Source: Magnetococcales bacterium (GTDB lineage Bacteria; Pseudomonadota; Magnetococcia; Magnetococcales; DC0425bin3). From it: a DNA stretch of 58,186 nucleotides. The position numbers and the translations under genes are program-made. The stretch spans positions 45,517 through 103,702 of the forward strand of contig JADGBZ010000002.1 in the NCBI GenBank assembly GCA_015231175.1. The letters are read 5' to 3'. The notes beneath the pieces are model-generated. The model did no database searches. It was not told where the DNA came from and saw only the letters and a program-made list of their open reading frames with translations. Shown in pieces: positions 2,018 to 29,523 of this stretch; the first letter of the stretch is position 1; each line of letters starts with the position of its first letter.

Positions 2018-2041
2018 AGCTACCAGGCCATCCGGGGTGTC

Positions 2042-3752: not shown

Positions 3753-3775
3753 ACCAGCGGGTTCACCCAGTGAAA

Positions 3776-3818
3776 CGGTCAGAAGCGCAATCTTTCGCGC
3801 TTCTGACCGGAATTTTTT
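3776..3818 (+). terminator. Rho-independent terminator after the Dam gene
   Basis: A perfect 13-bp stem (3776-3788 pairs with 3797-3809) with an 8-base loop is followed by AATTTTTT. It begins 23 bases after the methylase stop codon. Confidence 0.85.
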
Positions 3819-3830
3819 CGCGCGCCTGTA

Positions 3831-3968
3831 GTCACCCTTGCAAGAAAAGTCTGGACAGGAAAGCCTTTGTCAGGGCTTCGCCCCGAACCTCACCATGGCG
3901 CTGCCATGGACAAAGCCGGGGAGCCAGCCCACTGGACCCCGATTCGTTGCCGGGTGCTGAATGGCTAC
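3831..3968 (-). repeat. Dispersed hairpin-rich repeat, copy 1
   Basis: 138 bp. It shares a core (AAGCCTTTGTCAGGGCTTCG, then CACC.GGGCGCTGCCCTGG-like, then GGAGCCAGCCC.CTGGACC) with copies elsewhere in the window. Three short hairpins can form. The right end reads GGGTGCTGAATGGCTAC, one base from the family end GTGCTGAAT.GTTAC; the left end is GTCACCC. It lies between the prophage remnant and cusA. Confidence 0.8.
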
Positions 3969-4013
3969 TGACGTGGGGTGTCTGAACGACTACCGCTGAA
4001 TCGTTACTCCCGA

Positions 4014-7000: not shown

Positions 7001-7166
7001 GCCCGGGGTATTCCGTCAGCAGGATCACCTGCACATCGGAAAGGTCCGGAATGGCGTCCAGGGGAATGCGCACTACGGCGTAGATGCCGCTGGCAATCAG
7101 GAAGAAAGTTGCCAACAATACCAGTAAAACATTGCGGCATGACCAGCGAATCACCCAAGCAATCAT
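4014..7166 (-). CDS. cusA: Heavy-metal RND efflux pump, CusA type (Cu+/Ag+)
   Basis: 1050 aa, full length for the family. Inner-membrane trimeric pump that exports Cu(I)/Ag(I) with the CusB and CusC homologues encoded just upstream, driven by the proton gradient. The first membrane helix (about 10-35) is followed by RIPLDAIPDLSDVQVIL, the signature HME-RND start. TM4 carries GGIAIAVGAMVDAAIVMVEN with the charged residues used for proton relay. The central loop has TATDPAPTEMFET and WTMPLKARIDMLATGI, matching the CusA region with metal-binding methionines rather than CzcA. It is separated from the rest of the operon by a 173-bp inserted repeat. A His/Asp-rich open frame on the other strand is only its shadow. 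Confidence 0.93.
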   Translation of the reverse strand: MIAWVIRWSCRNVLLVLLATFFLIASGIYAVVRIPLDAIPDLSDVQVILLTEYPGQAPQVVEDQVTYPLTTAMLSVPRSKLVRGISSFGISFVTIIFEDGTDIYWARSRILEYLNFAARQLPPGITPTLGPDATGVGWVYQYVVLAKEKSLAELRTLQDWYVRFHLARTEGVAEVASVGGYVQQYQVIVDPQQLQAYQIPLSRLSQAIAMSNRDVGGRVVEMAETEYIVRGRGYLRGIHDLEKIVLKEVNGAPVRIGDVARVELGPDERRGMAELNGEGEAVSGIVVQRFGQNALKVIQNAKDRLAEITSSLGEGVHIEAVYDRSALILRAIETLKHTLIEESLIVAGVCILFLLHVRSALVAILMLPVGVLIAILLMQSLGMTSNIMSLGGIAIAVGAMVDAAIVMVENAHKHLERAAPDTPRHRVIMEAACEVGPPLFFSLLVITVSFLPVFTLESQEGRMFKPLAFTKTFAMAGAALLSITLVPVLMLLFVRGRITPEHKNPINRLLVWLYRPIIRLVLRFKKSFILLALVVMGVSVAPALRLGSEFMPDLDEGTLLYMPTTLPGLSMTKAEEMLQTQDKIIKGFPEVASVFGKAGRANTATDPAPTEMFETVINLKPASAWRPGMTREKLVAELDAALQMPGVNNAWTMPLKARIDMLATGIRTPIGIKVFGNSLETIEPLAEQIEAVVKRVPGTTSAYAERVGGGFYLTIDPDRDAIARYGLTIGDLQEVILTALGGETVTTTVEGRERFSVNVRYPRDFRSDPDSIAQRVLVRAENGAQIPLGQLASIRLEKGPAAIRTENALLSVYIFVDIRDRDIGSYVADARQAVQEKVRMPQGTFLQWSGQFEYMEHAKAKLKVVLPLTLFIIFLLLYLNFGRLTETLIVMLSLPFALVGGIWLMDHLHFNLSVAVAVGFIALAGVAAETGVVMLIYLDHALRERFSRCQAENSIPTRNDIHAAIMEGAVERVRPKMMTVVAIMAGLLPIMWSAGTGSEVMRRIAAPMVGGMVSSTLLTLIIIPAIYGQIKEFTLRRRSILKDQSSRSIV

Positions 7167-7223
7167 CGACGGATCCCTTCCGATGCACAGTTGCCATTTT
7201 GTCTTGCCGGAATATTGCGCTCT

Positions 7224-7414
7224 CTTCTAAACGTAACCATGCACCACCCGGCCACGAATCGGGGTCCAGGGGGCTGGCTCCCTGGCTTGGTTCAGGGCGT
7301 TGCCCTGGCGGGGTTCGGGGCGAAGCCCTGACAAAGGCTTTCATGTCCAGGATTTTCTGGAAGGGGCGATGAGTGGTTACGGTCTGGGGGTCTTTGAACA
7401 ATTACCTTCTAAAC
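7224..7414 (-). mobile_element. MITE-like repeat, copy 2, with perfect 9-bp target duplication
   Basis: The element spans 7233-7405 (173 bp), starts GTAACC and ends AATTAC. It is flanked on both sides by the identical 9-mer CTTCTAAAC (7224-7232 and 7406-7414). Inside are the family hairpins CCAGGG..CCCTGG, CAGGGC-GTT-GCCCTG and GGGC-GAA-GCCC, and the conserved GACAAAGGCTTTCATGTCC. There is no coding capacity for a transposase, so mobility would need one in trans. It sits inside the cus operon between the lipoprotein gene and cusA. Confidence 0.8.
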
Positions 7415-7419
7415 AAACA

Positions 7420-7716
7420 TCATGGCCGTTCCTGATGTTGAGGTATTGAGCGGGATTTGGACTCGGGGGCATCTTCAGCGGTGTTTTTTTCTGTGTGTTG
7501 AGGTGTTTTGCGGGATTTGGACTCGGGGGCATCTTCAGCGGTGTTTTTTTCTGTTTTATTTTGTTGGTTGTTGTGCGTGTCGCCCATCCCAGACATGATC
7601 GGCATCATGATCGGCATCATCACGGGGCAACCCGATGTCAGCAACCCCAGAACAGCGAGCAGCAGCAGACGGGACACCAGAGTGAAACGAGGATGCTTTT
7701 TGACGATATCAGGCAT
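7420..7716 (-). CDS. Small Met-rich lipoprotein in the cus operon
   Basis: 98 aa from the ATG at 7716; a longer frame starts at 7743 but overlaps cusB. A basic N-terminus and hydrophobic helix end in a lipobox LLTSGC (cleavage before Cys), predicting an outer- or inner-membrane lipoprotein facing the periplasm. Directly after the Cys comes CPVMMPIMMPIMSGMGD, seven methionines within 17 residues, a pattern suited to Cu(I)/Ag(I) binding. The tail is a hydrophilic tandem repeat (KTEKNTAEDAPESKSRKTPQ-like, two 20-residue units). It could serve like the CusF metallochaperone or a metal sponge; this role is inferred from context only. I know no named family. Confidence 0.65.
   Translation of the reverse strand: MPDIVKKHPRFTLVSRLLLLAVLGLLTSGCPVMMPIMMPIMSGMGDTHNNQQNKTEKNTAEDAPESKSRKTPQHTEKNTAEDAPESKSRSIPQHQERP
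7441..7554. repeat. 60-bp direct tandem repeat within the lipoprotein gene
   Basis: Bases 7441-7500 and 7501-7554 are nearly identical with a period of exactly 60 bp, so the coding frame is kept and a 20-residue unit (TEKNTAEDAPESKSR...) is doubled in the protein. Confidence 0.9.
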
Positions 7717-7739
7717 CGATTTTCCCCTTCTCTGGTGAA

Positions 7740-9215
7740 TCAATGCGAAAAATGTCCGAGAGCGGCCCGCAGGTTGGCCTCGGCATCGATGAGAAAATTG
7801 GCGCGCACCACCACCTTTTCACCGGCTTTGACCCCTTCCATGATCTCCGTGAAGCCACCCCCCTTGCCGCCCATGCGGACCGGACGGGGTTCATAGAGCC
7901 CTTCACCCCGCTCCACAAGAACCACCTGCCGTGAACCGCTGTCCAAAACGGCGGAGTCCGGTACCGTCATGACGGCGCCATCATCGGTCGGGGCTGACAA
8001 CACCACGGTGGCATAGAGGGCGGGACGCAACAATCCGCCCGGGTTGGGCATCTCGATGCGCACCTTGACGGTACGGGTTTCGGTGGTCAGGGTGGGATGG
8101 ATGAAGGCCACCTTGCCGGAGAAACGTTTCCCCGGCATGGCGCTCAAGGTCACCTCGGCGATTTGGCCTTGGCGCACCAGACCCACATCCTGCTCAAAAA
8201 TGTCGGCCATGACCCAAATGGTGGAAAGGTCGGCGATGCGGTAGAGCATGTCGCCCGGCATGAAACGCATGCCCTGGATGGCCCCTTTTTCCAGGATGAC
8301 ACCCGAAACCGGGGCATGGACGGTCATGCTCCTGCCGGCTTTGCCCCTGGCTTGCAGTTGTTTGATCTGGTCTTCGGAGATATCCCAGTTGCGCAGGCGG
8401 GTGAGGGCGCTTTCCGCCAGGTTGCCTGCCGTGTCCCGGGTTTCGGCGTCGGCATCCTGCAACCGTTCTCTGGCCCGAAAAGCCGCCAGATACTCCTGCT
8501 GTGCCACCACCAGCGCCGGGCTGTACACCTCCATCAACGGCTCTCCCCGACGCACGGATTGACCGGTGGTGTTGGCGAAGAGTTTTTCGATCCAACCTTC
8601 ATACTTCTGGGTGACGATGTGCAGTTTGCGCTCGTCCACCTGCACGGTGCCCACGGCGCGAATGGACCGGGTCATGGGACGCCAGGCGACCATCTCCGTC
8701 TTGACCCCCAGTTTTTGCACCTTGTCCAGATCGATGCGCACCGCATCGCTCCCCGTTGGGGCCGCATCTTCGGCATAGACCGGGACATAATCCATGCCCA
8801 TGTTGTCCTTTTTGGGCGTGGGGGAGGTATCGGGCAGGCCCATGGGGTTGCGGTAATAGAGAACCTTGCGCGGACTGTTGTTGCCGGGATGTGTGGCAGA
8901 TGGTTTGGCTTTCTCCGGGGCAGGTGCGTCGGCATAGACCGGGACATAATCCATGCCCATGCTGTCCTTTTTGGGCGTGGGGGAGGTGTCGGGCAGGCCC
9001 ATGGGGTTGCGGTAATAGAGAATCTTGCGTGGGTTCTTGTCCGCATGGTTTGGTGCTGCATCGGCGTGGTGATGCGACTCGCCGTGCCCCGCATGTTCAT
9101 CCCCGGCGCCCCAGGCCGGGGTCAAAACGAGAAAACTCCCCGCAAGCACGGCCCGAAAGATTGTGCCACAGGAGAGCATCCTGAATGGGGCAGAGAAGGT
9201 GGTCACTTGGCGCAT
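7740..9215 (-). CDS. cusB: Periplasmic adaptor of Cu/Ag efflux, CusB type, with duplicated metal-binding domain
   Basis: 491 aa. Membrane-fusion protein joining the RND pump to the outer-membrane channel. A signal peptide (about 1-36) is followed by a His-rich stretch (HAGHGESHHHADAAPNH). Then come two copies of the heavy-metal-binding domain, each with LYYRNPMGLPDTSPTPKKD and MGMDYVPVY (about 63-92 and 116-145). The adaptor core follows: VQVDERKLHIVTQKYEGWIE (barrel-sandwich half), a helical hairpin rich in Gln/Ala (about 230-290), then VHAPVSGVILEKGAIQGM (second half) and the beta-barrel region. It overlaps the cusC homologue by 13 bases, so the two are translationally coupled. Confidence 0.93.
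   Translation of the reverse strand: MRQVTTFSAPFRMLSCGTIFRAVLAGSFLVLTPAWGAGDEHAGHGESHHHADAAPNHADKNPRKILYYRNPMGLPDTSPTPKKDSMGMDYVPVYADAPAPEKAKPSATHPGNNSPRKVLYYRNPMGLPDTSPTPKKDNMGMDYVPVYAEDAAPTGSDAVRIDLDKVQKLGVKTEMVAWRPMTRSIRAVGTVQVDERKLHIVTQKYEGWIEKLFANTTGQSVRRGEPLMEVYSPALVVAQQEYLAAFRARERLQDADAETRDTAGNLAESALTRLRNWDISEDQIKQLQARGKAGRSMTVHAPVSGVILEKGAIQGMRFMPGDMLYRIADLSTIWVMADIFEQDVGLVRQGQIAEVTLSAMPGKRFSGKVAFIHPTLTTETRTVKVRIEMPNPGGLLRPALYATVVLSAPTDDGAVMTVPDSAVLDSGSRQVVLVERGEGLYEPRPVRMGGKGGGFTEIMEGVKAGEKVVVRANFLIDAEANLRAALGHFSH
8770..9032. repeat. 159-bp-period duplication encoding two metal-binding domains of CusB
   Basis: 8770-8873 and 8929-9032 (104 bases each) differ at only a few positions. 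The period of 159 bp (53 codons) preserves the frame, showing a recent internal duplication of the YRNPMGLPDTSPTPKK domain. Confidence 0.92.
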
Positions 9216-10501
9216 AACTCTTCTCCCACAAACCTTTCGATCTCGGCAAGACGCACCTGCTGTTCAAACTGGGCCTTGATCAGGTCGATCTGAAATTTTT
9301 TCAGGCGTTGGATCGTATCCAGGACGGTGGTGGCGTCGGCATTGCCGTTTTCATACCCCTTCAGGGCCGCTTGCAGGGCGATGCGTGCCTGGGGCAGCAG
9401 ACTCTCCCGGGTCACTTTTTCCACCTGTTGGGTCTCCTCCAGACTGAGCAAGGCCTCGCGCAATCCGGCTTCCACCTGGAGGTGTTCGGCGTGCAGGCGT
9501 TCCTGGGCGGCTTGTTTTTTCAGCAGGGCATCCCGTTCCTGGGCTTTGAGGGGTTCCCACTGCAAGGGTACACGGACGGCCAGCATCGCCTCAAAGCCAT
9601 CCTGCATCTCCGCGTTGCGGCGATTGACCAGGCCAACGCCCATGTCCAGGTCGGGAAACCAGTTTTTCTTTGCCAAACGGATATTCTCCGTGGCGGCTTC
9701 CAGGCGGGCCTGTCCCATGCGCAGGGCAGGGTTGGCGGCCAGGCCGCACTCCAGGAGTTTGTGGTAGTCCAGGGTGGTGGCTGGCGGCAGAGGACGCAAT
9801 TGCGGGTGTTCGACCAGCAGGGCATCCGGGGGGCGGTTGACCAGGGCGTTTAAGCGAGCGCGGATGCGGTGGCGCTCTTTTTCCAGACGAATCAAATCCG
9901 CAGACATGGCGCCGCGTTCCGCCTCGGCGGATGTGGCCTCCTGCTGTCCGCTCACGCCGTTGGCATAACGCAAACGGGCAAACTCGACCAGGGCACGGAG
10001 GATTTGAATCAACTCGTTGGTTTGATCCATAGTGAGGTGAACACGGTGATAATCCGCATAGGTCATTTTGACCTTCATGAGCACGTTGGCCACCTTGTCC
10101 GCATGTTGGCCTTCGGCTTCCCGGTTTTCGGCAGCGGCGATCTCTCGCTTGATGCCCCGCTTGCCCCACCAGGGGATCTCCTGTTGGAAGAGATATTTAT
10201 ATGTTGCCGAACGGCCAGGGAGGCCGCGAGCGTTTTCCGAGATGTCATCCAGCGTCAGCTGGAATTTTGGGTCCGGCAGGGCATCGGACCCTTGAACCCG
10301 GGCTTGGGCTGCTTCTGTCTCCAGAGATGCCGCTGCCAACTCCGGATTCATGGCGCGGGCACGGATCAGCAACTCTTCCACAGAGGCGCCGACCCGTTCG
10401 TTGGAGGTGTTCTCCCCGGCCCGAGCCGGATGGGCGGGTCCAATCAGGAACACCGCCAGGAGAAGCCAGGGAACGAGAGATCCTCCGACCAGATTTTTCA
10501 T
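9203..10501 (-). CDS. cusC: Outer-membrane efflux factor (TolC/CusC family)
   Basis: 432 aa from the ATG at 10501. This gives a normal signal peptide (KNLVGGSLVPWLLLAVFLI, cleavage near ARA-GE); an ATG at 10534 would add a basic extension that lies very close to the proposed transcription start. The mature protein has the alternating coiled-coil pattern of the family: AASLETEAAQARVQGSDALPDP near residue 65, the repeat of it near 270 (RMGQARLEAATENIRLAKKN), and WFPDLDMGVGL. It forms the trimeric outer-membrane channel for the CusA/CusB homologues. First gene of the cus operon; the stop overlaps cusB. Confidence 0.87.
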   Translation of the reverse strand: MKNLVGGSLVPWLLLAVFLIGPAHPARAGENTSNERVGASVEELLIRARAMNPELAAASLETEAAQARVQGSDALPDPKFQLTLDDISENARGLPGRSATYKYLFQQEIPWWGKRGIKREIAAAENREAEGQHADKVANVLMKVKMTYADYHRVHLTMDQTNELIQILRALVEFARLRYANGVSGQQEATSAEAERGAMSADLIRLEKERHRIRARLNALVNRPPDALLVEHPQLRPLPPATTLDYHKLLECGLAANPALRMGQARLEAATENIRLAKKNWFPDLDMGVGLVNRRNAEMQDGFEAMLAVRVPLQWEPLKAQERDALLKKQAAQERLHAEHLQVEAGLREALLSLEETQQVEKVTRESLLPQARIALQAALKGYENGNADATTVLDTIQRLKKFQIDLIKAQFEQQVRLAEIERFVGEELCAK

Positions 10502-10547
10502 GACAGGCCGTTTGTTGGTCTTAAAGAGTGGCATAACATGGCAGCCA

Positions 10548-10576
10548 TGTAGCATATCGATTTGTCATTTTGTCAA
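10548..10576 (-). promoter_or_regulatory. Candidate sigma-70 promoter of the cus operon
   Basis: On the minus strand a perfect -35 box TTGACA (10576-10571) is followed after 17 bases by a weak -10 GCTACA (10553-10548). It would start transcription near 10541, just upstream of cusC. No clear CueR/CusR operator was recognised. Confidence 0.4.
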
Positions 10577-10643
10577 GGGGCCGCCATATGGTCATGAGAC
10601 GCATGGCGCCGGTGGAAAGATCGTGGTAAGGAGATTCGAGCGG

Positions 10644-10871
10644 ATGACGACGATCACCCAGATCGGAAAAATCAAAATCAGTGTTTATGCCGACGACCAT
10701 AACCTGCCCCATTTCCATGTGGCGTCTCCGGAAGCAGATGCCATCGTTTGCATCAGGGATATGGTCGTCATGGGGGGAGATGAGGCCCATGCCCACGTTA
10801 ACGCCGCTATCGAATGGGCCAAAAGGCATCGCGAAAAAATCGCCCTGGCCTGGATCGACATGAACGGATAA
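10644..10871 (+). CDS. DUF4160 protein
   Basis: 75 aa, ATG at 10644 with AAGGAG about 10 bases upstream. It shows the DUF4160 pattern: KIKISVYADDHNLPHFHV near the start, then a middle Asp/Val-rich strand and AAIEWAKRHREKIALAW at the end. DUF4160 proteins are small and usually paired with a DUF2442 protein, as here (10-base gap). The pair is often suspected to be toxin-antitoxin-like, but the biochemical role is not established. It is divergent from the cus operon. Confidence 0.8.
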   Translation: MTTITQIGKIKISVYADDHNLPHFHVASPEADAIVCIRDMVVMGGDEAHAHVNAAIEWAKRHREKIALAWIDMNG

Positions 10872-10881
10872 GGAGATTGCC

Positions 10882-11151
10882 ATGCAGGCCCACCGCGTTG
10901 AATCCGTACACGCCATTCCCGGCACGCTTACCCTTGTCGTGAAATGGCGAAATGGTGTGGAAGATGCCGTTGATATGACGCCGATCATTCAGAGATCGGC
11001 TCCGTTGCGTCACCTGGAAAATCCTGATCTGTTTTCCGAGGTCGAAGTGATCGATTGGGGTTGCGCCGTGGGTTGGCGCGGCGACTTGGGATACGGCGCC
11101 GATACTCTCCATGAGCAGATCCGTCAGCAAAACATGAAAGTCGCTGGATGA
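10882..11151 (+). CDS. DUF2442 protein
   Basis: 89 aa, with an AAGGAG site just before the ATG at 10882. It matches DUF2442: an N-terminal strand (RVESVHAIPGTLTLVVKWRNG), then DMTPIIQRSAPLRHLENPDLF, FSEVEVIDWGCAVGW and a C-terminal DTLHEQI. It is the usual partner of DUF4160 and very probably co-transcribed with it. Function unknown; the partner role in a toxin-antitoxin-like pair is inference. A partial dispersed repeat follows the stop codon directly. Confidence 0.82.
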   Translation: MQAHRVESVHAIPGTLTLVVKWRNGVEDAVDMTPIIQRSAPLRHLENPDLFSEVEVIDWGCAVGWRGDLGYGADTLHEQIRQQNMKVAG

Positions 11152-11155
11152 ACGC

Positions 11156-11236
11156 CGAGGACGGCGCCCCGGTGGGGTCCGGGGCGAAGCCCTGACAAAG
11201 GCTTTCATGTCCAGGTTTTTCTTGAAAGGGCGCCGA
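11156..11236 (-). repeat. Dispersed repeat, partial copy 3
   Basis: About 80 bp containing GGTGGGGTCCGGGGCGAAGC, CCTGACAAAGGCTTTCATGT and TTTTTCTTGAAAGGGCGCCG. The half with the CCAGGG hairpin and both terminal inverted repeats are missing. Confidence 0.75.
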
Positions 11237-11260
11237 CTTGAGAGTGTGTGGTGGGAAGAT

Positions 11261-12022
11261 TCAACGATCACTACCCGACAAGTGGGCGGCCCAGTTTTTA
11301 AAAAACGTCTGCGCAAAAGCGTAGCTGTCGGGTGTCCCAAAGTCGATAAACGGGTAAGTGTCCACCATGGCGGCCAGGGAGCCGGGGGCCATGGCGTGCA
11401 AAATGTCTTTCTCCAGAGACGACCCGGCATGGGCGGCAATACGCCGCAACATGGCAGGCTCCATAAGGATGAGACCGGCATAGATGGATCCGGTTCCCTG
11501 GCGAGACGGATCTTTTTCGAGAAAGTGTTGCAGCCGGTTGTCGGCGTCAATGCTGACCGAACCGTAGCGGCTCACGTCCGGGACTTGGGTACAAAGGAGG
11601 GTTGCTTCGGTTTTTGCCGCCACGTGGGTGGCGTGGAACCGACACAGATTGGCCCCGACAAAAGTGTCCCCGTTGACCAGCAGGACGCGGCGGTCCCGCA
11701 GGTGGGGCATGGCATGCCGCAGGGCGCCTGCGGTTCCCAAGGGTTCGGGTTCGATGACCGGCCACATCTCAAGGCCAGGAGGCCCGGGATGGTTGGCCAA
11801 ATACTCCTGAATGGCCCCGGCGCGGTGCCCCAGGCAGAGCACCACGCGCCGGGCGCCGAAAAACATCAGCCACTCCAGGAGGTACTCCAGGAATGGTCGA
11901 TCGGCCAGCGGAGCCAGCAGTTTCGGCGTCTGGCCCAAGACACCCCGGACACGGGTGCCCAGGCCGCCCGCCAATACAGCGACCGTGACCGGTTGCAAGC
12001 AGTTTGACCGCACCTCAGTCAT
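11261..12022 (-). CDS. Sugar-1-phosphate nucleotidyltransferase, HddC/GMD type
   Basis: 253 aa. Rossmann-like nucleotidyltransferase with the NTP-binding signature VAVLAGGLGTRVRG and the downstream Lys (GQTPKLLAPLADRPFLEYLL), then EPEPLGTAGALRHA and LLVNGDTFVG (metal-binding Asp). This length and layout fit enzymes that transfer GMP or another NMP to a sugar 1-phosphate, such as HddC of the GDP-D-glycero-alpha-D-manno-heptose pathway. An HddA-like kinase lies at 21124, so HddC is plausible but the substrate is inferred. Last gene of the operon that begins at 19173; 14 bases separate it from the epimerase gene. Confidence 0.75.
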   Translation of the reverse strand: MTEVRSNCLQPVTVAVLAGGLGTRVRGVLGQTPKLLAPLADRPFLEYLLEWLMFFGARRVVLCLGHRAGAIQEYLANHPGPPGLEMWPVIEPEPLGTAGALRHAMPHLRDRRVLLVNGDTFVGANLCRFHATHVAAKTEATLLCTQVPDVSRYGSVSIDADNRLQHFLEKDPSRQGTGSIYAGLILMEPAMLRRIAAHAGSSLEKDILHAMAPGSLAAMVDTYPFIDFGTPDSYAFAQTFFKNWAAHLSGSDR

Positions 12023-12036
12023 GGCCTTTGTGTCGG

Positions 12037-12981
12037 TTAAACGTTGCTGTAACGGGTGTTGCGCAGCATGGTGTACCCCTTGATCAGCTCCTGAATACCC
12101 AGATCCAGGCCGTGGGCCGGTTTGAAGCCGGTGGCCTCGATTTTATCGTTGGAGACGATATAGTCCCGTTTGTCTGGATCTTCCCCGATGGGGGCGTCCA
12201 TGGCGACAAAATGGGGCAGATGGGCCTGGATGCGGGTGCAGAGTTCACGTTTGGAGAGGTTGGCATCGGAGAGGCCAACGTTGTAGATCTCACCCTTCAT
12301 GTCCGAAAATTTGCCCAAGGCATGAAGGAAGACCCGGGTCACGTCACGGACATGGATGTAGTTGCGTTTGAAGTGCGATTCAAACAACACCACGGCCCGG
12401 TCGTGGACGGCGCGGTAGACAAAGTCGTTGACCAGCAGATCGATGCGCATGCGTGGGGACATGCCGAAGACGGTGGCCAGGCGGAAACTGATGGCGTTGG
12501 GATGTTGCATCATGGCCTCTTCGGCCTCCACCTTGACGCGGCCATAGAGGGAGATGGGCCGCAGGGGGGATTTTTCATCGCAGTGTTTGCCGGCCTCGCC
12601 GATGCCGTAGCCGGAGTTGCTGACCGGCATCAGCACCCGTTGTTGCGGACTCAACATTTTGCACAACATGACGACGGCGTCACGGTTGATCGAGACGGTG
12701 CCGATTTCATCTCGCGAGCAGAGGGGAGCGCCCACCAGGGCGGCAAGGGGGATCACCACGTCCGCCTTTTTGATCAGATCGGCCATGATGCGCTGGTCCC
12801 GGCAATCGCCCCGGACGATCTGAAAATCCGGGTTGGCGCACACATGGGCCAAAGAGTTTTGCTGAAAGATGAAGCTGTCCAAAACGGTGACCCGGTGGCC
12901 GGCGGCCAAAAACTCCGGAACCATGGTGGAACCCAGGTAACCGGCTCCACCTGTTATCAGAATCGAATGTTTTTCCGTCAT
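12037..12981 (-). CDS. NAD-dependent sugar epimerase/dehydratase (extended SDR)
   Basis: 314 aa; the ATG at 12981 has GGGAG upstream. The N-terminus is ILITGGAGYLGSTMV, the GxxGxxG NAD site. It continues with DVVIPLAALVGAP, the SNSGYGIG strand and the catalytic YxxxK in SLYGRVKVEAE, then NYIHVRDVTRVFLHAL. It likely epimerises or dehydrates an NDP-sugar in the surface-glycan pathway of this operon. The substrate cannot be read from sequence. It lies between the AT-rich membrane protein and the nucleotidyltransferase. Confidence 0.85.
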   Translation of the reverse strand: MTEKHSILITGGAGYLGSTMVPEFLAAGHRVTVLDSFIFQQNSLAHVCANPDFQIVRGDCRDQRIMADLIKKADVVIPLAALVGAPLCSRDEIGTVSINRDAVVMLCKMLSPQQRVLMPVSNSGYGIGEAGKHCDEKSPLRPISLYGRVKVEAEEAMMQHPNAISFRLATVFGMSPRMRIDLLVNDFVYRAVHDRAVVLFESHFKRNYIHVRDVTRVFLHALGKFSDMKGEIYNVGLSDANLSKRELCTRIQAHLPHFVAMDAPIGEDPDKRDYIVSNDKIEATGFKPAHGLDLGIQELIKGYTMLRNTRYSNV

Positions 12982-13028
12982 GATCGGGTAGCTCCCTTGT
13001 GCAATGCAGTTCATAAACATGAAACTTT

Positions 13029-15263
13029 TCAGAAAGATGAAGCAGAAACAGGTGTGGGGGGCAAGGTAGAGGGGGGGGGCATGGCCCACAGCGAACTTTG
13101 CCAATCCAGCATGGGTAAAAAATTGTCCGAATTTTGATAATCGACGGAAAATTCATCTGAATTATAATAGGATTGTTTTTCTTTCTCAACAACAAGTCGA
13201 AATTGCACAGGCAACATATCCTTCGTCACCTTTCTGTCTTTGAGAAATCTCAGCAATTTTTCATCCTTTAAAAACGGCACAACCAAAAAGTTCGTCTTTC
13301 CGGTTGACATGAAATAATTCACTGAAACAATATTGTCATCTTTGAATTTAAAATCAATATAATTTCTTGGTGGTTTATATAAAAAACTAACAACCTTACC
13401 GAGCTTACTGTATTTCCCATTAATTTTCATTCTAGAAAAACTGTTTTCTTTATAGATTATCGGCACCCACTCGCCAAGTCTGAATTTTTTTCCTATAACA
13501 GTGTCGTTAAATTTAAACGCATCGGCCATATGCTGGTCTTCACGTCTTCTCAAGAGAATAATTCTGTTTTCGATCACAACAGGAAAATAGCGCAATAATA
13601 TCTCAACAAAAGCCAGATTGTCTTGCATGACGGGTGTGGCATCAGGCAGCATGACAAACTTGGTGGCCGTGCGTGCAGAGACAAAAAATTTTCTATTCAT
13701 TTCCAATATATGTTCGTTAGTAGCCGCGAAAGCTATCGGCATGGGGCGTGGATGGTAATTTAGGTCACCCAATAGGGGAATACCAGGGTTGGAACCAAAA
13801 AAATCCACCGTTGCTTGACCGACAGTTTTGATAATTGTGGGGATAGAAGCCTTAACATTCTCGGCGCTTTCTTGGTATTTGACGCCCTGCTTGTTCATAT
13901 TGCGCCGTAAATCCAAGACAAAACTAATGTTATTAATGGCGCGGTCAACAATAACATACCTGAAACCCTCTGATACTCTTATCGTGTGGTTTGGTAAGTC
14001 AATAGACATGCTATAAACGAACCCAATTGTTATCACAATAAAAAATTGACCGAAATGATATCGTGTCACCCAAGATATATCATGCCGCACCTTGTTATGG
14101 GTTGCGGTCGGCGACGAACAGCCAGGACTATCGACACAGGTATCTGGTGATTGTTTTACAGGATACGTCGCAGTCCGAAAATAACGCATAATTTTATTTT
14201 TTGTGTTGGTTAACTCATTAGAGTATCCTAGTAAAATTAGCGGAAACAAGGCCAATATGGGCCGGAAAAAGACCTGCATATGTTGGCCATCGGCCCTGAC
14301 AAAACCATGCTTCCACATGGCAAAGAAGATAAATGTTTGTGATAATATCATGCCAAGACGAAACTTATTCGAGATTAAATCGCCAAGTCGCAGTATAATG
14401 TTCAGTAAAATAACGGCCCATACGGACATGGCGCCCCAGAAATATAAAGGTTTTTCGTATCGCGCTGCAAATTCATTGTATCCATCTGTAAATAAAAATA
14501 TTGACATCATGTAGCGTGGGAGAGTGTCTAATGTTTGAGCAGAGGAAATCCAAAAAAATATAAAAGATGCAAAAAATACTGAACACAGAATGAATGTCTC
14601 AGCGAATCTTTTTTCCGAGATACGTAACAAAAACAAACTGACAACGAGAATCAAAACAATGACGCTGTACATTGTTTTCGCCATCATTAATATCGATAAA
14701 TTAATCATCAAAAATATTTCAAATATGGAAACCGATTCGGAGAGAATCGTCTTTTTCTTGGCTGTTGAAAAGAGGTATTGTGCAGATAATACCAAAAAAA
14801 CATAACTGCCGCCTGTTAACAAAAATCCACCCCAGGTAAGGCTGGTCAACAGAATAACAACAAAGTGGACTGTGCGCCCTGTTTGTGAGGAGATGTCATG
14901 GGATGCAAAAAAAATCATGCGAATTGTCAATAATAAGTTAATAAAAGTATAAATAATTTTTTGATATTCATATAATCCCGTATAAATATTGGGGTAATTT
15001 AATAACCCAAGGGGACCAATGTTTTGAATGACCTGCACACCAAATTGGTAACCTTTTTTCAGATAAAATTCGTAGCTTAACTGGCTACCCAGATCATGCT
15101 GGGCGGTTGGGATATCGAACGGAAAGGCCATGTTGATCGACAAGATCAGCACAGTGTACAACGCGACGCACGCCCACGAGTATGTTTTAGTTGATAAAAT
15201 ACTCGAATAACCGGAATGATCCGGGCGGGGTTGTGCCATTGATTGCATTGACTGCCTTGTCAT
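13029..15263 (-). CDS. Large multi-pass membrane protein of unknown function (AT-rich)
   Basis: 744 aa from the ATG at 15263; a GTG at 15290 would add nine residues. About ten hydrophobic segments occupy the first 430 residues (for example YSWACVALYTVLILSINMAF and IFLMINLSILMMAKTMYSVI), followed by a short helix near 460 and a soluble domain of about 290 residues rich in Lys, Asn and Phe. The pattern resembles integral membrane glycosyltransferases or polymerases of glycan clusters, but I see no diagnostic motif. Base composition is clearly lower in G+C than the genes on both sides of the same operon, a sign of separate acquisition. Confidence 0.6.
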   Translation of the reverse strand: MTRQSMQSMAQPRPDHSGYSSILSTKTYSWACVALYTVLILSINMAFPFDIPTAQHDLGSQLSYEFYLKKGYQFGVQVIQNIGPLGLLNYPNIYTGLYEYQKIIYTFINLLLTIRMIFFASHDISSQTGRTVHFVVILLTSLTWGGFLLTGGSYVFLVLSAQYLFSTAKKKTILSESVSIFEIFLMINLSILMMAKTMYSVIVLILVVSLFLLRISEKRFAETFILCSVFFASFIFFWISSAQTLDTLPRYMMSIFLFTDGYNEFAARYEKPLYFWGAMSVWAVILLNIILRLGDLISNKFRLGMILSQTFIFFAMWKHGFVRADGQHMQVFFRPILALFPLILLGYSNELTNTKNKIMRYFRTATYPVKQSPDTCVDSPGCSSPTATHNKVRHDISWVTRYHFGQFFIVITIGFVYSMSIDLPNHTIRVSEGFRYVIVDRAINNISFVLDLRRNMNKQGVKYQESAENVKASIPTIIKTVGQATVDFFGSNPGIPLLGDLNYHPRPMPIAFAATNEHILEMNRKFFVSARTATKFVMLPDATPVMQDNLAFVEILLRYFPVVIENRIILLRRREDQHMADAFKFNDTVIGKKFRLGEWVPIIYKENSFSRMKINGKYSKLGKVVSFLYKPPRNYIDFKFKDDNIVSVNYFMSTGKTNFLVVPFLKDEKLLRFLKDRKVTKDMLPVQFRLVVEKEKQSYYNSDEFSVDYQNSDNFLPMLDWQSSLWAMPPPSTLPPTPVSASSF

Positions 15264-15361
15264 ACCCTGTTGCGCGTCGCATACGCCCACCCGGCGTTCG
15301 CACGGCGTCGCGACACATTTTCCCTGATCTGAAGAGGAAACCAGCGGGACGCGGGGGGGAT

Positions 15362-15889
15362 CTATTTTATCTCTGTCATGCTGTCACGCGGGGAGAGAAT
15401 CGGGTTGGTCACGGGCCAATAGATGCCAAACCGTGGGTCGTCCCAACGGTAGGTGAATTGACTGGGGCGATCGTAGTAGGTGGTTTGTTTGTAGTTGAAG
15501 ATGGAAAATTCGCTGAGGATCAGATGTGAGGTGCCATGCCAGGGCGGAATCAGCACCTGCCGCCGGTTGACACTCGACAGGGTGAAGGGAACCCACTGAC
15601 CGAACAGGGGGGAGTTGGGGTCGCAGTTCACCACCACCAGATAGAAGCGGCCATAGGGGCAGGAGACCAGTTTCCAGGTTTCGCCATCGCCGTGGATGCC
15701 GCGCAGCACGTGCAGGTGGGAGGAGGAGAGATCATCCTGGACAAAATCCATGGTGATGCCGGCGGCGTGATACGCCTCCCGGTTGTAGGTCTCGACATAA
15801 TAGCCCCGAAAATCTTCGAAGACGGTCAACGGGTGGATCAACAGCACGCCGGGCAGTTTGGTTTTTTCGACTCTGAGTGGTGACGACAT
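15362..15889 (-). CDS. RmlC-like sugar 3,5-epimerase family protein
   Basis: 175 aa from the ATG at 15889 (GGAG upstream). The cupin fold of dTDP-4-dehydrorhamnose 3,5-epimerases is visible: FEDFRGYYVETYNREAY, FVQDDLSSSHLHVLRGIHGD (catalytic His), GRFYLVVVNCDPNSP, and IPPWHGTSHLILSE. After RGIH the usual Gln-rich loop is replaced by GDGETWK, so the substrate may not be dTDP-4-keto-rhamnose. It is flanked by the split transketolase and the AT-rich membrane protein in one operon. Confidence 0.8.
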   Translation of the reverse strand: MSSPLRVEKTKLPGVLLIHPLTVFEDFRGYYVETYNREAYHAAGITMDFVQDDLSSSHLHVLRGIHGDGETWKLVSCPYGRFYLVVVNCDPNSPLFGQWVPFTLSSVNRRQVLIPPWHGTSHLILSEFSIFNYKQTTYYDRPSQFTYRWDDPRFGIYWPVTNPILSPRDSMTEIK

Positions 15890-15923
15890 GGGCTCCTCTC
15901 TGGCCTGTTGGCAGGGCGGCAGG

Positions 15924-16877
15924 TCACTGTTGCAAACAGCGACCCACGTTTTCGGCAATAACCTGGGCGTCGCAGCCGTTTAATTGATAGAGGTACTCCC
16001 GGTTGCCAAATTTTGACATGTATTCATCCTGGAAGCCGAAGGAGAGCATTTTTTGCGACAGGCCATGCCGATGATGCACGGATCGAAGCAAAGCATCCAG
16101 ACCACCCTTGTCGGTGAACCCCTCTTCCATGGTGATGATGTGATGGCAACCGGCCAGGGCCTGGACCAGTTTTTCCTCGGCGACAGGTTTCAGCAGGAAG
16201 AGGTCGATGACGCCGACCTGACCCGGTGCAAAGCGGGCGGCGACCTCCAGGGCGATACGGGTCATGTGGCCCGTGGCGACGAGCATCACCTGTTGGCCCG
16301 GGCGCAAGGTACAAAATCCCTCTTTGGCTGGCAGCGGTCGTTCGGCGGAGTAGATAGCGGGAAAGGCCTTGCCATCCAGGCGGATATATTTGGGCTTGGG
16401 CACTTCCAGGGCATAATCCAGGAAGTCGGCGGCTCCGTACCAGTCGCAGGGGGAGAAGAGGTGAACGTTGGGCAGGGCGCGAAATGTGGTGAGATCTTCC
16501 AGACAGTGGTGGGTGGGACCGGAAACGTCATAGCTCACCCCGCCGCCCACGCCGATCAGGTTGACATTGAGCGGATGGTGCTGGGCCATCAAGGCCAGAT
16601 CGATGCGGATCTGCTCAAAGGCGCGCAAGAAAAACGGCGCAATGGCATAGGCAAAAACCTTGAACCCCTCCAGGGCAAGGCCCGTCGCCACGTTGACCAT
16701 GTTTTGCTCGGCAATGCCGACGTTGATGAACCGGTCGGCAAAGTCGGCGCGCACATGGTCCAGAATGGGGGCTCCCATGTCGGCGGAGAGAAAAAAAATA
16801 TCTTCATCGGTGCGCATGCGGTGATAGATGCGTTCGATCAGCGAATCCCGCATGGTTTTCCGAACGTCGGCGCTCAT
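15924..16877 (-). CDS. Transketolase-like C-terminal subunit (pair 1)
   Basis: 317 aa; the start overlaps the stop of the N-terminal subunit gene by 4 bases (ATGA). It contains the Pyr domain of transketolase (FFLSADMGAPIL, INVGIAEQNMVNVATGLALEG with the Glu that activates TPP) and a C-terminal domain (VGVIDLFLLKPVAEE). The subunit needs the partner encoded upstream to form a TPP enzyme transferring a two-carbon ketol unit. In glycan clusters such split enzymes probably act on nucleotide-sugar or sugar intermediates; the substrate here is unknown. Confidence 0.85.
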   Translation of the reverse strand: MSADVRKTMRDSLIERIYHRMRTDEDIFFLSADMGAPILDHVRADFADRFINVGIAEQNMVNVATGLALEGFKVFAYAIAPFFLRAFEQIRIDLALMAQHHPLNVNLIGVGGGVSYDVSGPTHHCLEDLTTFRALPNVHLFSPCDWYGAADFLDYALEVPKPKYIRLDGKAFPAIYSAERPLPAKEGFCTLRPGQQVMLVATGHMTRIALEVAARFAPGQVGVIDLFLLKPVAEEKLVQALAGCHHIITMEEGFTDKGGLDALLRSVHHRHGLSQKMLSFGFQDEYMSKFGNREYLYQLNGCDAQVIAENVGRCLQQ

Positions 16878-17692
16878 GGCAACTCCCCGAGGATGCGATC
16901 CACTTCCTCTTCCTTGAAGACTTTGACGTGACACAGGGGATCCCTCTCCAACTCCGGGACGCCCCGTCCTTTGACTGTATCCGCGACCAGGGCCTGGGGT
17001 TTGCCAGGGGGGTGTTGCACCATGTCGCGCAGACGCTCCTGGATGGCCCCCACATCGTGACCGGCGACTGTTTCGACATGCCAGCCAAACTGACGCAGTT
17101 TTTCAGGAAAGGGCGCCAGCCCAAGGATATCGACCTGGCGTCCCAGCATGGAGACCTTGTTGTCATCCAGGATCATGATCAGGTTATCCAGGCGATGGAA
17201 ACCGGCAAACATGACGGCTTCCCAGATGGCGCCGGAGTTCATTTCGCCATCGCCGGTGAGGACAAAGACCTTGCGGGTGGAGCGGCGTTTGCGCAACGCC
17301 AGGGCCATGCCGCAGCCGACCCCCAGCCCATGTCCCAGGGAGCCGTTGGTGGTTTCGATGCCGGGGACGATCGCCTCGGGGATGACACCCAGGATGGACT
17401 CCGGCTTGGCGATGCGTTCCAGCTCCTCGCGTGGAATGTACCCACGGTCGGCGAGAATGGGATAGAAGGAGATGCAACCATGCCCCTTGCTCAGGATGAG
17501 CCGGTCCCGATCCGCCCAATGGGGATGGGCCGGGTCGTGGCGTATCACCCCGCCGTAGTAGAGGGCGCAGAGGATTTCGACGCACGAGAGGGAGGAGGCC
17601 AAACGGGTGCCGGGGGCCAGTTTGTGCAGGCGCACCGTCTCGCGCCGGACCCAACGGGACTTCTCTTGCAAATATTCCAGGGAGTCGTTCAT
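16874..17692 (-). CDS. Transketolase-like N-terminal subunit (pair 1)
   Basis: 272 aa. TPP-binding PP domain: LSKGHGCISFYPILADRGY, GIETTNGSLGHGLGVG and the TPP motif GDGEMNSGAIWEA ending in DDN. Where normal enzymes and pair 2 of this window read LGGHPE, this one reads LGVIPE: the conserved substrate/TPP-site His is absent. It overlaps both neighbours by 4 bases, so stoichiometric translation with the C-terminal subunit and the radical SAM gene is likely. Confidence 0.87.
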   Translation of the reverse strand: MNDSLEYLQEKSRWVRRETVRLHKLAPGTRLASSLSCVEILCALYYGGVIRHDPAHPHWADRDRLILSKGHGCISFYPILADRGYIPREELERIAKPESILGVIPEAIVPGIETTNGSLGHGLGVGCGMALALRKRRSTRKVFVLTGDGEMNSGAIWEAVMFAGFHRLDNLIMILDDNKVSMLGRQVDILGLAPFPEKLRQFGWHVETVAGHDVGAIQERLRDMVQHPPGKPQALVADTVKGRGVPELERDPLCHVKVFKEEEVDRILGELP

Positions 17693-22191: not shown

Positions 22192-22605
22192 TCACTCGAA
22201 CGATATGACCAGTTTCTTCCCAAAGATGGCAGCCGCTTTTTCAAGTTGCTTCAAAGATGGGCAGTGATGCGGATCCTCCAGCCGTTTGGCTGCCGGCCAG
22301 GAAGTTCCCATGGTTCGGGCAACGTCGGCCATGGATCGACCTTTTCTGGCCTGACGGATGAGCATGGCGGCCTGTGTCTTGGCATCCGGGGCCACGAGAT
22401 ACGCGCCGACTGCCTTGGGGGTGGGTTGGGGAATGTCCATTCCTTCATCCATTCGCCCGTTCAGGGTCATCGACAGCACCTTGGAAGCGTTGGATAAGAC
22501 ATCCTCCAAGGTATCTCCCTCGGTGAAGGCCTCTTCCAAATCAACGAATTGCGCGAGGAATCCCCCGTCCTCGGGTGTCAAAATGGCGGGATAACGGATA
22601 TCCAT
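22192..22605 (-). CDS. hicB: HicB-type antitoxin with C-terminal DNA-binding domain
   Basis: 137 aa; AAGGA 8 bases before the ATG. N-terminal partial RNase-H-like HicB domain (YPAILTPEDGGFLAQFVDLE, then GDTLEDVLSNASKVL), linker, and a C-terminal helix-turn-helix (MLIRQARKGRSMADVART, then WPAAKRLEDP). HicB antitoxins bind the HicA RNase toxin and repress their own promoter. The gene lies 10 bases downstream of hicA, but that hicA copy is frameshifted, so hicB may now be an orphan repressor. Confidence 0.85.
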   Translation of the reverse strand: MDIRYPAILTPEDGGFLAQFVDLEEAFTEGDTLEDVLSNASKVLSMTLNGRMDEGMDIPQPTPKAVGAYLVAPDAKTQAAMLIRQARKGRSMADVARTMGTSWPAAKRLEDPHHCPSLKQLEKAAAIFGKKLVISFE

Positions 22606-25402: not shown

Positions 25403-25435
25403 GAAAACACCTAAAGGTCCGACGGGCCGCCAAAA

Positions 25436-25535
25436 AGGATTGAAAAACTGGGATGGAGGTCCAGGAGGAAGGGCTGTGCCCTTCCTCCTGGTGGGGTTCG
25501 GGGCGAAGCCCCGACAAAGGCTTTCATATCAACCT
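25436..25535 (-). repeat. Dispersed repeat, variant copy 5
   Basis: Starts GGATTGAAAAACTGGGATGG, then a hairpin GGAGGAAGGGC..GCCCTTCCTCC, then GGTGGGGTTCGGGGCGAAGC and GACAAAGGCTTTCATATC. Same 3' core as the other copies but with a different 5' hairpin. It lies in the gap between the wecB and SIR2 genes. Confidence 0.75.
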
Positions 25536-25557
25536 CTCTTCACAAACCATTCAGTAC

Positions 25558-25617
25558 CCATGGGGTTCGGGGCGAAGCCCTGACAAAGGCTTTCATGTCC
25601 AAGCTTTCCTATCCAAG
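25558..25617 (-). repeat. Dispersed repeat, partial copy 6
   Basis: A second, shorter copy of the 3' core (GGGGTTCGGGGCGAAGCC, then CTGACAAAGGCTTTCATGTC) just 23 bases after copy 5, and 40 bases before the stop codon of the SIR2 gene. Confidence 0.75.
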
Positions 25618-25657
25618 CCTTTCCAGTTCAACATTCTGCCAAAACCTCCCATCCTTT

Positions 25658-28600
25658 TCACGGATTTATGGCGGAAAGACGTTGAAACGCATCCTCTTTC
25701 TTCAGGCTTGGATCGGATTGCGCAATCTCGTCAAGAATATGGGTAATATCGTTCTGTGGTATAGTCTCTTTGCTGACGATTTTATCCAAGAGTTTCAGCG
25801 TATGTTTTGGGAAGCGGGAAGTTAGCTTGGATGTTTTGTTCTTCTCGATAAGAAATAAAACCGAGCCTCCCCGTTTCTCTGGGCAAAGTTGATCCTCGAT
25901 GGTATCAACCACATCCGGGAACGCACTATCCGCTGAAATGGCCAGCATGGCGAGTTCTTTGGAAATATCTTCAGATTTATCCTTTGGACGTGTTGGCCAT
26001 GCACGTTTTAACCACGGCCCCATTGCCTCTTTCCACAAGGTGGGTGCTTTTTCTCCCGCAGCCTGTACCATATCTCTGAGCGCCGAGGCAACCATGGCCA
26101 AACTGGTGGTGTTCATGCTGAAGAGTACACTGTGCGATTCATCCGGAGAGATGCCCCTGTCTGGTGGTATGGCTATATGAATGAATAATTGAATCCCGTT
26201 GTCGCGGACATCTTCCGGAATCTTATCAAGATGAGAGAGTATCTTAAAAAATATTCCCTTGAATACAGGAAGAAATTTTTCTGAGTAACGAGGAGAAGAG
26301 AGATAGCCCTGCCATAGATATTGATTGAATGTGTCCATATGATCGACATCCATACGACATAACAGGGTGTTTTCTGTCCAAACTGGATCGATAGAGAAGA
26401 GGTGTAATAGATTAAGCGCTAAACGTACCCGAGCCAGATCGACTGATGGCCCTTCATCCTTGGTGATCCTGTCGAAGCATGGTTGTAATCGCCTGGGTAA
26501 TCCCGGGGGTTCACCGGGAGGCACTCGCGGAAAATGGTTTGCCAACTCATCAAGAAGAATCTGTCCTAAAATACCGCCAGAATGGTTGTAAGACATGTTG
26601 AAATCAAGGTTATCCTCTTGTGCTTCTTCTTTGAGAGACGCATCCCACATTTTTTGCCATAGTTTTAGTTGCAAGTGTTCGTCCAGGTCATTTCGAAAAT
26701 GTTGTAACCAATTTGCAGGCGTGGCGTTCATTTCGGTCAATATTTGCAAAGGCATCACGTTTAAAATGCTTGCAATTTTCCCGATAATGCTATCCTGAGG
26801 TGTTTCAGATTGTCGATGACGGGACAAAAAGTCGGCCCATGGAAAAACAAACCAGTGACCTTGATCGGCGGCGTTTTTGAGTAACGTCAGTGCAGATTCG
26901 AAATTTTCTTTGCAAAAATCACCCCATCCATCTCCGTTCCACTTGTTTTTCAAAGGATTATCTTCTCGCGCCTTTGTCCGGCGGATAAAGTCTTCGGTGG
27001 TCATTTTGGAAAAATTTTGTGAAACTTCCCCTTCGTCAGGGCCAAACCGTTGTACACCAGTGCTATACCTTGCGAATTCCTCGGCATGGTCTTGCTGTGG
27101 TTCCAGTTGATGCTTGAGACGGATTTCGTTGAATTTATTTCGGGTATCGTGTGGCAGTTCCACTTCCGATTCAATCAATTTGAGCAATCGAAGCCACACC
27201 GCCCGCTCATAAAAGGATGCCGATTCTTCTTCAATGAGATTCGGGAAAGCAGTTTTAAACCGGGCATAATCTCCTGTAATGGCCTTTGTCAATCGAAGCA
27301 CATCTTCATGTGTAAGATCTCGACCGCGTTTGCGCAAAAAACGGCAAGTTTCACGTTGGGTATCAGTGGCCCACAGCGATGGAAAGGGATGATTCAGCAA
27401 AAGTTCCAACCCAAGGCTGACCCCGTGTTTGCTGTCTTGCGTGGCGGCATACAAGGCCAAACGCTGAAAAATTGGATAAGCAATATATTGCCAGCGCTGC
27501 GCCAGTCGAGAGGCCCCATCCGGGTCTCGTTCAAACAAGGCATCGTAGGCGTCCCGTACAAGGGCAATCAACTGCACCCATCCTTTGGGGCGCGAGTTCT
27601 GGTCATGAGGAGAGATGGAGGGGTAACTCTCGCACGTCCAATCTTTTTCGGGTGATGCCTCGCCAAACACCTGGAGCCACTCCATCGCCTCTTTCAACCG
27701 CATGGTGAGGTCATCAGCCATGATGGCCAATGTTCCTTCCCAATCGATAGCGTTGCCCTTGGATTGATTGATGTTATCAAAGTGGCTCCGGGTACCAACC
27801 AACTCGACATCCATGACGTACCAATCTCCGGGTTGGTTGGGATCCGGGTTTGCCTTACCAAACACGTTTCTGAAGAATTTATAATTTTCAGATTTAAAAA
27901 CCGGAATGGGGCGCAGATGGTCCAAAAATGATCTGATGGCAAAGGGATTATTCGGATCCAACGGAGGGAATGTCGGAAGAACCCGTGTGTTTTTCAAGGA
28001 CAAGGTGTAGGCGTAGTCATCATCCGCAAGAACCCGCCATATTTTGGCCAAGGCCGAGGGAATAGGTGGAGAGCTGTTTCCGAGAGCGTGCTGAACTTGA
28101 GACCGAAGGCGCAAATGCAGCACGCATCCCTCTCCAAAGGCCCATTCAAGAGTCTTCGGGCTATCCAGATATTGGGCAATCCAACGACCTAAATGAAACA
28201 CGGCTGGGTGGATATCCAGATGGTCGGTCAAGGTTCTGGAAACCAGGGGAACGTCGATGGGTTTTCCATCGTTGCTTTGGCCAATGGACTGACTCAAGAT
28301 CCCATTTTTCTGCAAGGCCGCAAGCCATTGCGGACCGGGACGATCTTTATCTTTCAGGTCGGCGAAAAATTTGGCGGCATCGACATTTTGGAGTGCCCAG
28401 GTGAGTTCCTTAATGACCGGATCATCATCATTCGAGGGTGGCGTTCGTCCAAGCTCCCTGAATTTTTGGTTCCTTGCATCACGGCCTTGGCGATGGTCAT
28501 CCGCCCATTTCTTCAACCCCTGCCACAACTTTTCGTGATGGTTGGTCGCGTCATAGGGCAGTGGTTCCAAACCCTTCAATTTCCATACTTGTTCAGCATC

Positions 28601-29386
28601 TTCCTTGTTTTTGTGGTCTTCATCACCGCCCCAGGGAGCAAAAGCATAAGGTTTTTTGAAAAGCGCATACCCCCTGCGGGCCGCCGCCAGGGCGCTGACC
28701 AGGTAACGCATGGTGGGGTCTTCGACCCGATAACCCAGAAAGAGAACATGATAGTGGCGAAACAGATCGATCACAAACCGGCGTGCCCATCCTTCCAACA
28801 GGTAGGCCGTGCCAAAATCTGCCACACTCAACACCAACCCCAGATTGTCTGGAGTGTTATCCAACTTTCCGTGCAGATAGATCAGGCCATTCAATGTATC
28901 TGGCCTGGCTGGCGGGAGAGCAGGCGCTGCATGAATGGACGTGTCGTGATTGGAATCCTCGTCTCTGATGGATTCTAGAGCAATCTCGAACAAACAGTCA
29001 AAGTTGGTTGTGACCAATCTGCCACGCGGCTTGTCGAGATCGGCCAATCTGGCCAGAATAACATGATGATCAGAAATTTTGTTATTTTGAGACAGGTGGT
29101 GTTTGACGCGCTGGCGCACCTTTCTTGGGTCAAATCCACCATCCTCAGCGGCTTCCAAAAAGCCCAAAGCTTCATCAAATTTGTTGTTTTCATACGCCTT
29201 CCATGCCAACGCTTCCGTGCTTCCTGGCATACAACCCGTTTTCTCTGGCAGTAAATCCGTAAAAACATTCTTGACCAGTTCCTCGAAGGAGGGCATCCCC
29301 GCAGGCATGGAAACACCCGCACCACAAAAGAGGATAACCTCGTCGTCTTCGAGGGATCTGCGCAACTCATCCGGGATAAGGCCCAC
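25658..29386 (-). CDS. Large SIR2-domain protein, defence-associated-sirtuin-like
   Basis: 1242 aa from a GTG at 29386, which has AGGAG five bases upstream; longer starts would lie inside a dispersed repeat. The SIR2 domain is at about 10-320: FCGAGVSMPAGMPSFEEL (NAD site), TTNFDCLFE with Asn128, YLHGKLD with His172, and LFLGYRVEDPTMRYLV. The remaining 900 residues are mostly helical and rich in Trp and charged residues, with no recognised domain. DSR1/DSR2 anti-phage proteins have this plan: an NADase SIR2 head and a long sensor body that triggers NAD depletion on infection. Family identity is inferred from architecture. Base composition is lower in G+C than its neighbours; it stands alone with repeats on both sides. 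Confidence 0.75.
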   Translation of the reverse strand: MGLIPDELRRSLEDDEVILFCGAGVSMPAGMPSFEELVKNVFTDLLPEKTGCMPGSTEALAWKAYENNKFDEALGFLEAAEDGGFDPRKVRQRVKHHLSQNNKISDHHVILARLADLDKPRGRLVTTNFDCLFEIALESIRDEDSNHDTSIHAAPALPPARPDTLNGLIYLHGKLDNTPDNLGLVLSVADFGTAYLLEGWARRFVIDLFRHYHVLFLGYRVEDPTMRYLVSALAAARRGYALFKKPYAFAPWGGDEDHKNKEDAEQVWKLKGLEPLPYDATNHHEKLWQGLKKWADDHRQGRDARNQKFRELGRTPPSNDDDPVIKELTWALQNVDAAKFFADLKDKDRPGPQWLAALQKNGILSQSIGQSNDGKPIDVPLVSRTLTDHLDIHPAVFHLGRWIAQYLDSPKTLEWAFGEGCVLHLRLRSQVQHALGNSSPPIPSALAKIWRVLADDDYAYTLSLKNTRVLPTFPPLDPNNPFAIRSFLDHLRPIPVFKSENYKFFRNVFGKANPDPNQPGDWYVMDVELVGTRSHFDNINQSKGNAIDWEGTLAIMADDLTMRLKEAMEWLQVFGEASPEKDWTCESYPSISPHDQNSRPKGWVQLIALVRDAYDALFERDPDGASRLAQRWQYIAYPIFQRLALYAATQDSKHGVSLGLELLLNHPFPSLWATDTQRETCRFLRKRGRDLTHEDVLRLTKAITGDYARFKTAFPNLIEEESASFYERAVWLRLLKLIESEVELPHDTRNKFNEIRLKHQLEPQQDHAEEFARYSTGVQRFGPDEGEVSQNFSKMTTEDFIRRTKAREDNPLKNKWNGDGWGDFCKENFESALTLLKNAADQGHWFVFPWADFLSRHRQSETPQDSIIGKIASILNVMPLQILTEMNATPANWLQHFRNDLDEHLQLKLWQKMWDASLKEEAQEDNLDFNMSYNHSGGILGQILLDELANHFPRVPPGEPPGLPRRLQPCFDRITKDEGPSVDLARVRLALNLLHLFSIDPVWTENTLLCRMDVDHMDTFNQYLWQGYLSSPRYSEKFLPVFKGIFFKILSHLDKIPEDVRDNGIQLFIHIAIPPDRGISPDESHSVLFSMNTTSLAMVASALRDMVQAAGEKAPTLWKEAMGPWLKRAWPTRPKDKSEDISKELAMLAISADSAFPDVVDTIEDQLCPEKRGGSVLFLIEKNKTSKLTSRFPKHTLKLLDKIVSKETIPQNDITHILDEIAQSDPSLKKEDAFQRLSAINP

Positions 29387-29403
29387 GGCAGCTCCTGTTT
29401 CTT

Positions 29404-29523
29404 CCAGAAAAGCCTGGATATGAAAGCCTTTGTCAGGGCTTCGCCCCGAACCCCACCAGGGCGCTGCCCTGGACAAAGCCAGGGAGCCAGCCCCCTGGAC
29501 CCCGATTGGTGGCTGGATCGTTC
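29404..29523 (+). repeat. Dispersed repeat, copy 7
   Basis: About 120 bp with the core TGAAAGCCTTTGTCAGGGCT, the hairpin CCAGGGCGCTGCCCTGG and AGGGAGCCAGCCCCCTGG. It fills the space between the SIR2 ribosome site and the stop codon of the radical SAM gene, which begins at 29524. Terminal inverted repeats are degraded. Confidence 0.8.

Follow-up and report, generated by a model that had tools for sequence, protein, structure and literature searches.

A gene for a divergent DSR1-type sirtuin

A gene on the minus strand of the window (the whole stretch of 58,186 nucleotides analyzed here) at positions 25658 to 29386 encodes, with a probability of roughly 85%, a defense-associated sirtuin of the DSR1 type that belongs to a divergent clade and is a candidate NADase gated by its long C-terminal body. 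The defense function is well supported by homology, from which the NADase activity is also predicted. An earlier note had proposed a DSR-type antiphage NADase from the letters of the DNA, and this call was supported by full-length homology to DSR1, by the catalytic residues, by a predicted SIR2 fold like those of DSR2 and ThsA, and by the defense context of a twin gene and two relatives.

The open reading frame comprises 1,242 codons without a stop, compared with a maximum of 229 open codons in base-shuffled versions of it, and its product matches the Dsr1 models of both PADLOC and NCBIfam. Although an in-frame TTG at 29527 is a possible alternative start that would give a longer protein, the GTG at 29386 was considered the better start because a ribosome-binding site (AGGAG, positions 29392 to 29396, minus strand) lies 5 nt ahead of it and because a broken twin of the gene has an ATG at the same codon. 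The frame and coordinates first assigned to the gene therefore stand. A promoter and terminator scan of the region upstream of the gene gave nothing usable. The GC3 of the gene was 0.51 versus a mean of 0.71 ± 0.05 in the neighboring genes (z of about −4), which bears out the lower G+C reported earlier; the base composition and codon usage of the gene are foreign.

The SIR2 domain and its catalytic residues

Residues 1 to 300 (positions 28487 to 29386, minus strand) form a SIR2 NADase domain, as indicated by a match to Pfam SIR2_2 (E value of 3e-19) and by the predicted fold. The domain carries the NAD-binding motif VILFCGAGVS at residues 17 to 26 (29309 to 29338), the predicted catalytic Asn128 within TTNFD (29003 to 29005), and the predicted catalytic His172 within LHG (28871 to 28873), all on the minus strand; by motif, the latter two are the equivalents of N133 and H171 of DSR2. 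In an alignment of 58 homologues, G22, G24, S26, N128, H172, and D223 were all invariant; the NAD motif and the Asn128/His172 pair are present as originally described. When the SIR2 part alone was compared with the PADLOC models, Dsr1 (E value of 6e-63) was a far better match than ThsA (8e-15). Identity between clade mates was 58 to 72% per 40-residue block in the core SIR2 blocks.

Place in the DSR1 family

The profile search against DSR1 that the earlier note had called for returned an end-to-end match: with the PADLOC Dsr1 model the E value was 6.3e-156, protein residues 4 to 1240 aligning with model positions 10 to 1238. The NCBIfam Dsr1 model (NF041818) gave an E value of 8e-204 and a score of 680 bits, which is below the equivalog cutoff of 1,400 bits set by NCBI and places the protein outside that equivalog group; since the score is half of the cutoff, the same function as that of DSR1 is not assured. 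The clade mates scored 635 bits with this model and four classical members 1,674 to 2,088 bits. In a maximum-likelihood tree, the window protein and its homologues from G023 and G009, two genomes of the same order, made up one clade (support of 100/100), which joined the NCBI-named Dsr1 proteins (100/99); two other SIR2 groups were separate. The window protein was 43 to 46% identical to these two clade mates, 42% identical to a relative from a gammaproteobacterial MAG (L095), 39% identical to one from an acidobacterial MAG (L096), and 24 to 28% identical to NCBI-named Dsr1. The other members of the clade (G023/L094, G009, L095, and L096) are also full length, at 39 to 46% identity to the window protein.

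Like DSR1, the window protein is the product of a single gene, is of comparable length (about 1,240 to 1,280 residues), has an N-terminal SIR2 domain with the same Asn and His, and continues into a body that is homologous to the DSR1 body along its length. The protein thus shows these sequence and gene-level features of the DSR1 family in the PADLOC sense, and NAD depletion and phage protection are predicted. The differences lie in its low identity to NCBI-named members, its separate clade, its bit score, and the lack of a stretch of about six N-terminal residues (NGP) which the NCBI-named members carry. Judged by these named profile models, the gene product is a full-length DSR1 relative of a distinct and distantly related branch.

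A first scan of genome contigs with a single protein as the query found nothing; a profile search of GTDB genomes with the alignment confirmed at least 514 relatives. Among the Magnetococcales, 12 of 48 genomes matched the PADLOC Dsr1 model, with both the divergent and the classical branches present.

Predicted structure and comparison with other SIR2 systems

An AlphaFold2 model of residues 1 to 1200, built with the 58-sequence alignment, had a mean pLDDT of 87.8 and a pTM of 0.60. When the model was compared with the PDB by Foldseek, the top 44 matches were all DSR2 chains; no match was found among viral models at an E value of 0.001. Structural alignment of residues 1 to 297 with DSR2 gave a Z score of 23.7 (rmsd of 3.1, 262 residues aligned), which ties with that of ThsA (Z score of 23.1, rmsd of 2.9, 260 aligned). 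The predicted SIR2 fold is thus like both, and in the model the matches to DSR2 and ThsA rest on the SIR2 domain. A PDB sequence search found no structure of DSR1.

C-terminal to the SIR2 domain, the model has a helical linker at residues ~315 to 420 (28127 to 28444, minus strand; assigned from model secondary structure) with a predicted β-hairpin at residues 367 to 378 and helices on either side. DSR2 has a pair of HTH motifs separated by a hairpin, followed by a helix bundle and HEAT repeats (PMC11263360), and the predicted linker recalls this HTH domain by eye. Residues ~780 to 1242 (25661 to 27049, minus strand) were predicted, from the matches of a body-only model, to form a HEAT-like helical solenoid. 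The body folded alone (pLDDT of 88.2) matched the PP2A scaffold, CAND1, and importins with a best Z score of 12.3, in a range common for helical repeats. DSR2 was absent from the VIA-align 2 matches listed for this model, which excludes nothing; HEAT-like matches are generic, and a DSR2 sequence match to the body was not found.

The SIR2 fold predicted here is shared with DSR2 of Bacillus subtilis (PDB 8wyb and others), which likewise has a helical-repeat body, differs in its length of about 1,005 residues, and is 15% identical to the window protein over the SIR2 domain. ThsA of Thoeris, although alike in its SIR2 fold, carries a SLOG domain and is partnered by ThsB, whereas Pfam found no SLOG domain in the window protein and the flanking genes do not encode TIR proteins; the protein is accordingly not placed with ThsA. 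Nor was it assigned to SIR2-HerA, SPARSA, or Avs5, as no HerA, Argonaute, or STAND ATPase domain was found in the protein by Pfam or in the flanking genes.

Insertion site and flanking repeats

The congener G002 is collinear with the window from 23.0 to 36.0 kb and shares the gene order on both sides of the dsr1-like gene. The genes that flank it in the window, encoding a UDP-GlcNAc 2-epimerase and a B12-binding radical SAM protein, sit 48 bp apart in G002, and the 4.1 kb comprising the gene and its repeat copies (25403 to 29523) is absent. Because G002 keeps the gene order and lacks just this gene, the dsr1-like gene appears to have arrived alone. The lone insertion between two nondefense genes is consistent with a single-gene system that needs no partner; the surrounding genes are of the sugar-nucleotide and radical SAM types, outside any defense island. 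The patchy occurrence in the order, the empty site in G002, and the foreign codon usage are as expected of mobile defense genes.

The gene is flanked by a dispersed repeat with one upstream copy (29408 to 29518, minus strand) and two downstream copies in inverted orientation relative to it (25487 to 25610, plus strand). The repeat has the core GGGGTTCGGGGCGAAGCCCTGACAAAGGCTTTCAT and a full, stem-loop-forming unit of about 150 nt, occurs about 435 times across 3.8 Mb (window positions 7310, 11174, 24069, 25493, 25562, 29420, 32114, and 3857), and is also found in congeners. By likeness it is REP-like or MITE-like. With this copy number, the stem-loops, and its absence at the empty site of G002, the repeat was rejected as a mobile-element border, and the copies may have come with the gene or after it. 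No mobile element carrying the gene was identified. Within the window, phage-like genes were found only at 1160 to 3752, about 22 kb from the dsr1-like gene; they encode a Neck1/tail completion protein, a tail-like protein, and a D12 adenine DNA methyltransferase. Given this distance, and since no homologue of the window protein was found in phage records, carriage as prophage cargo was also rejected, although genes of classical DSR1 do turn up on IMG/VR contigs. The gene had been described as lying between repeats near a decayed prophage. Repeats do flank it, but they occur genome-wide and the phage-like genes are remote, so that neither adds anything specific to the defense reading.

A broken twin and the defense context of relatives

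The same genome contains a second, broken dsr1 copy on contig 69 (L195). Its start is 85% identical in DNA to the window gene over 186 bases; it has then lost 253 bases, including the Asn128 codon, resumes in a different frame (77% identity), and breaks into multicopy sequence at the contig end. The twin directly follows genes matching models for DrmD, a type IIG restriction-methyltransferase, DruE, and a UvrD-type helicase, and thereby ends a defense-type cluster (L195, positions 206 to 17573) that consists of an SNF2/DrmD-like helicase, a type IIG methyltransferase, a DruE-like helicase, and a UvrD helicase. Its DruE-like helicase has 2,101 residues and a ZorE-like tail.

Two clade mates also adjoin other defense genes, which the window gene does not. 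In L095, LmuA- and LmuB-like genes come next, and in L096 the gene is preceded by DrmD (above the NCBI cutoff) and a type IIG/DrmMI-like gene. The acidobacterial L096 has the helicase-methyltransferase pair of the L195 cluster immediately ahead of its own dsr1. The defense context consists of three individual cases (the twin, L095, and L096) and is not a statistical result.

Alternative interpretations

The earlier note described a body of some 900 residues without recognized domains and suggested that it could be a sensor of a new type joined to a common SIR2 effector. The first part holds for Pfam, in which SIR2_2 was the sole match to the whole protein, and fails for PADLOC and NCBIfam. A novel sensor would fit the lack of a Pfam domain and the generic HEAT-like character of the Foldseek and VIA-align 2 matches to the body-only model. 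However, the body alone (922 residues) matched two PADLOC Dsr1 models with E values of 4.9e-90 and 9.3e-89, the latter alignment covering body residues 6 to 920, and residues such as its tryptophans W354, W450, W632, W850, W1003, W1025, and W1130 were invariant in the DSR1 alignment. The idea was rejected on the body-only matches, and we regard it as highly improbable: the body is homologous to that of DSR1 along its length.

Improbable to a lesser degree is that this DSR1 homologue does not, or no longer does, act in defense and instead has another NAD-dependent SIR2 role or is a silent remnant. Its solitary position in a nondefense neighborhood, the decay of its twin in the same genome, and an NF041818 score far under the equivalog cutoff would all agree with such a fate. 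Against it stand the 1,242 open codons with every catalytic residue kept, the full length of the remaining clade members, and the defense neighborhoods of the twin and of two relatives. A DSR1-type defense gene thus remains the preferred reading. Within it, we tentatively consider that the divergent clade (the window protein, G023, G009, L095, and L096) might be a DSR1 branch with a function of its own, in which the body reads a phage trigger different from that of classical DSR1, possibly via residues ~720 to 920. This is the stretch least conserved in the clade (about 25 to 36% identity per 40-residue block), and its role as a contact surface is a guess.

Proposed mechanism and significance

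In DSR2, binding of the phage tail tube protein to the helical body opens the SIR2 pocket so that NAD is hydrolyzed, for which N133 and H171 are needed (PMC10973363, PMC10981675). DSR1 is reported also to use its SIR2 domain and to stop phage without killing the host, unlike DSR2 (PMC10952713); for this reason an abortive outcome is not assumed here. The literature consulted gave no trigger for DSR1. From homology, we infer a two-part logic in which the body is the sensor and the SIR2 domain the NADase. Before infection, the helical body would keep the SIR2 domain inactive. A phage component, perhaps a structural protein by analogy with DSR2, would bind the body, upon which the SIR2 pocket would open. 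Asn128 and His172 would then support NAD hydrolysis, and the loss of NAD would halt phage propagation.

The DSR1 family is hereby extended to a divergent branch missed by the NCBI naming rule. As this branch keeps the whole body at about 27% identity, it can be used to separate structural parts from parts that possibly read the phage. Gain and loss of dsr1 genes in Magnetococcales are documented by the exact empty site in G002 together with the decayed twin.

Other observations

Classical DSR1 genes (L174 to L191) were found on contigs called viral by IMG/VR, many of which share the position of the match and the length layout. In the window, positions 13029 to 15290 encode a 753-residue protein with a hydrophobic, membrane-like N-terminal half (G+C of 40%, GC3 of 0.43), which matched nothing in Pfam, PHROGs, or PADLOC and adjoins sugar-nucleotide genes. 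The G+C drops sharply to 32 to 37% at 54650 to 58081, where methyltransferase-like and B12-binding radical SAM genes are found, and this segment is likely acquired DNA. A HicB-like antitoxin gene is located at 22192 to 22605.
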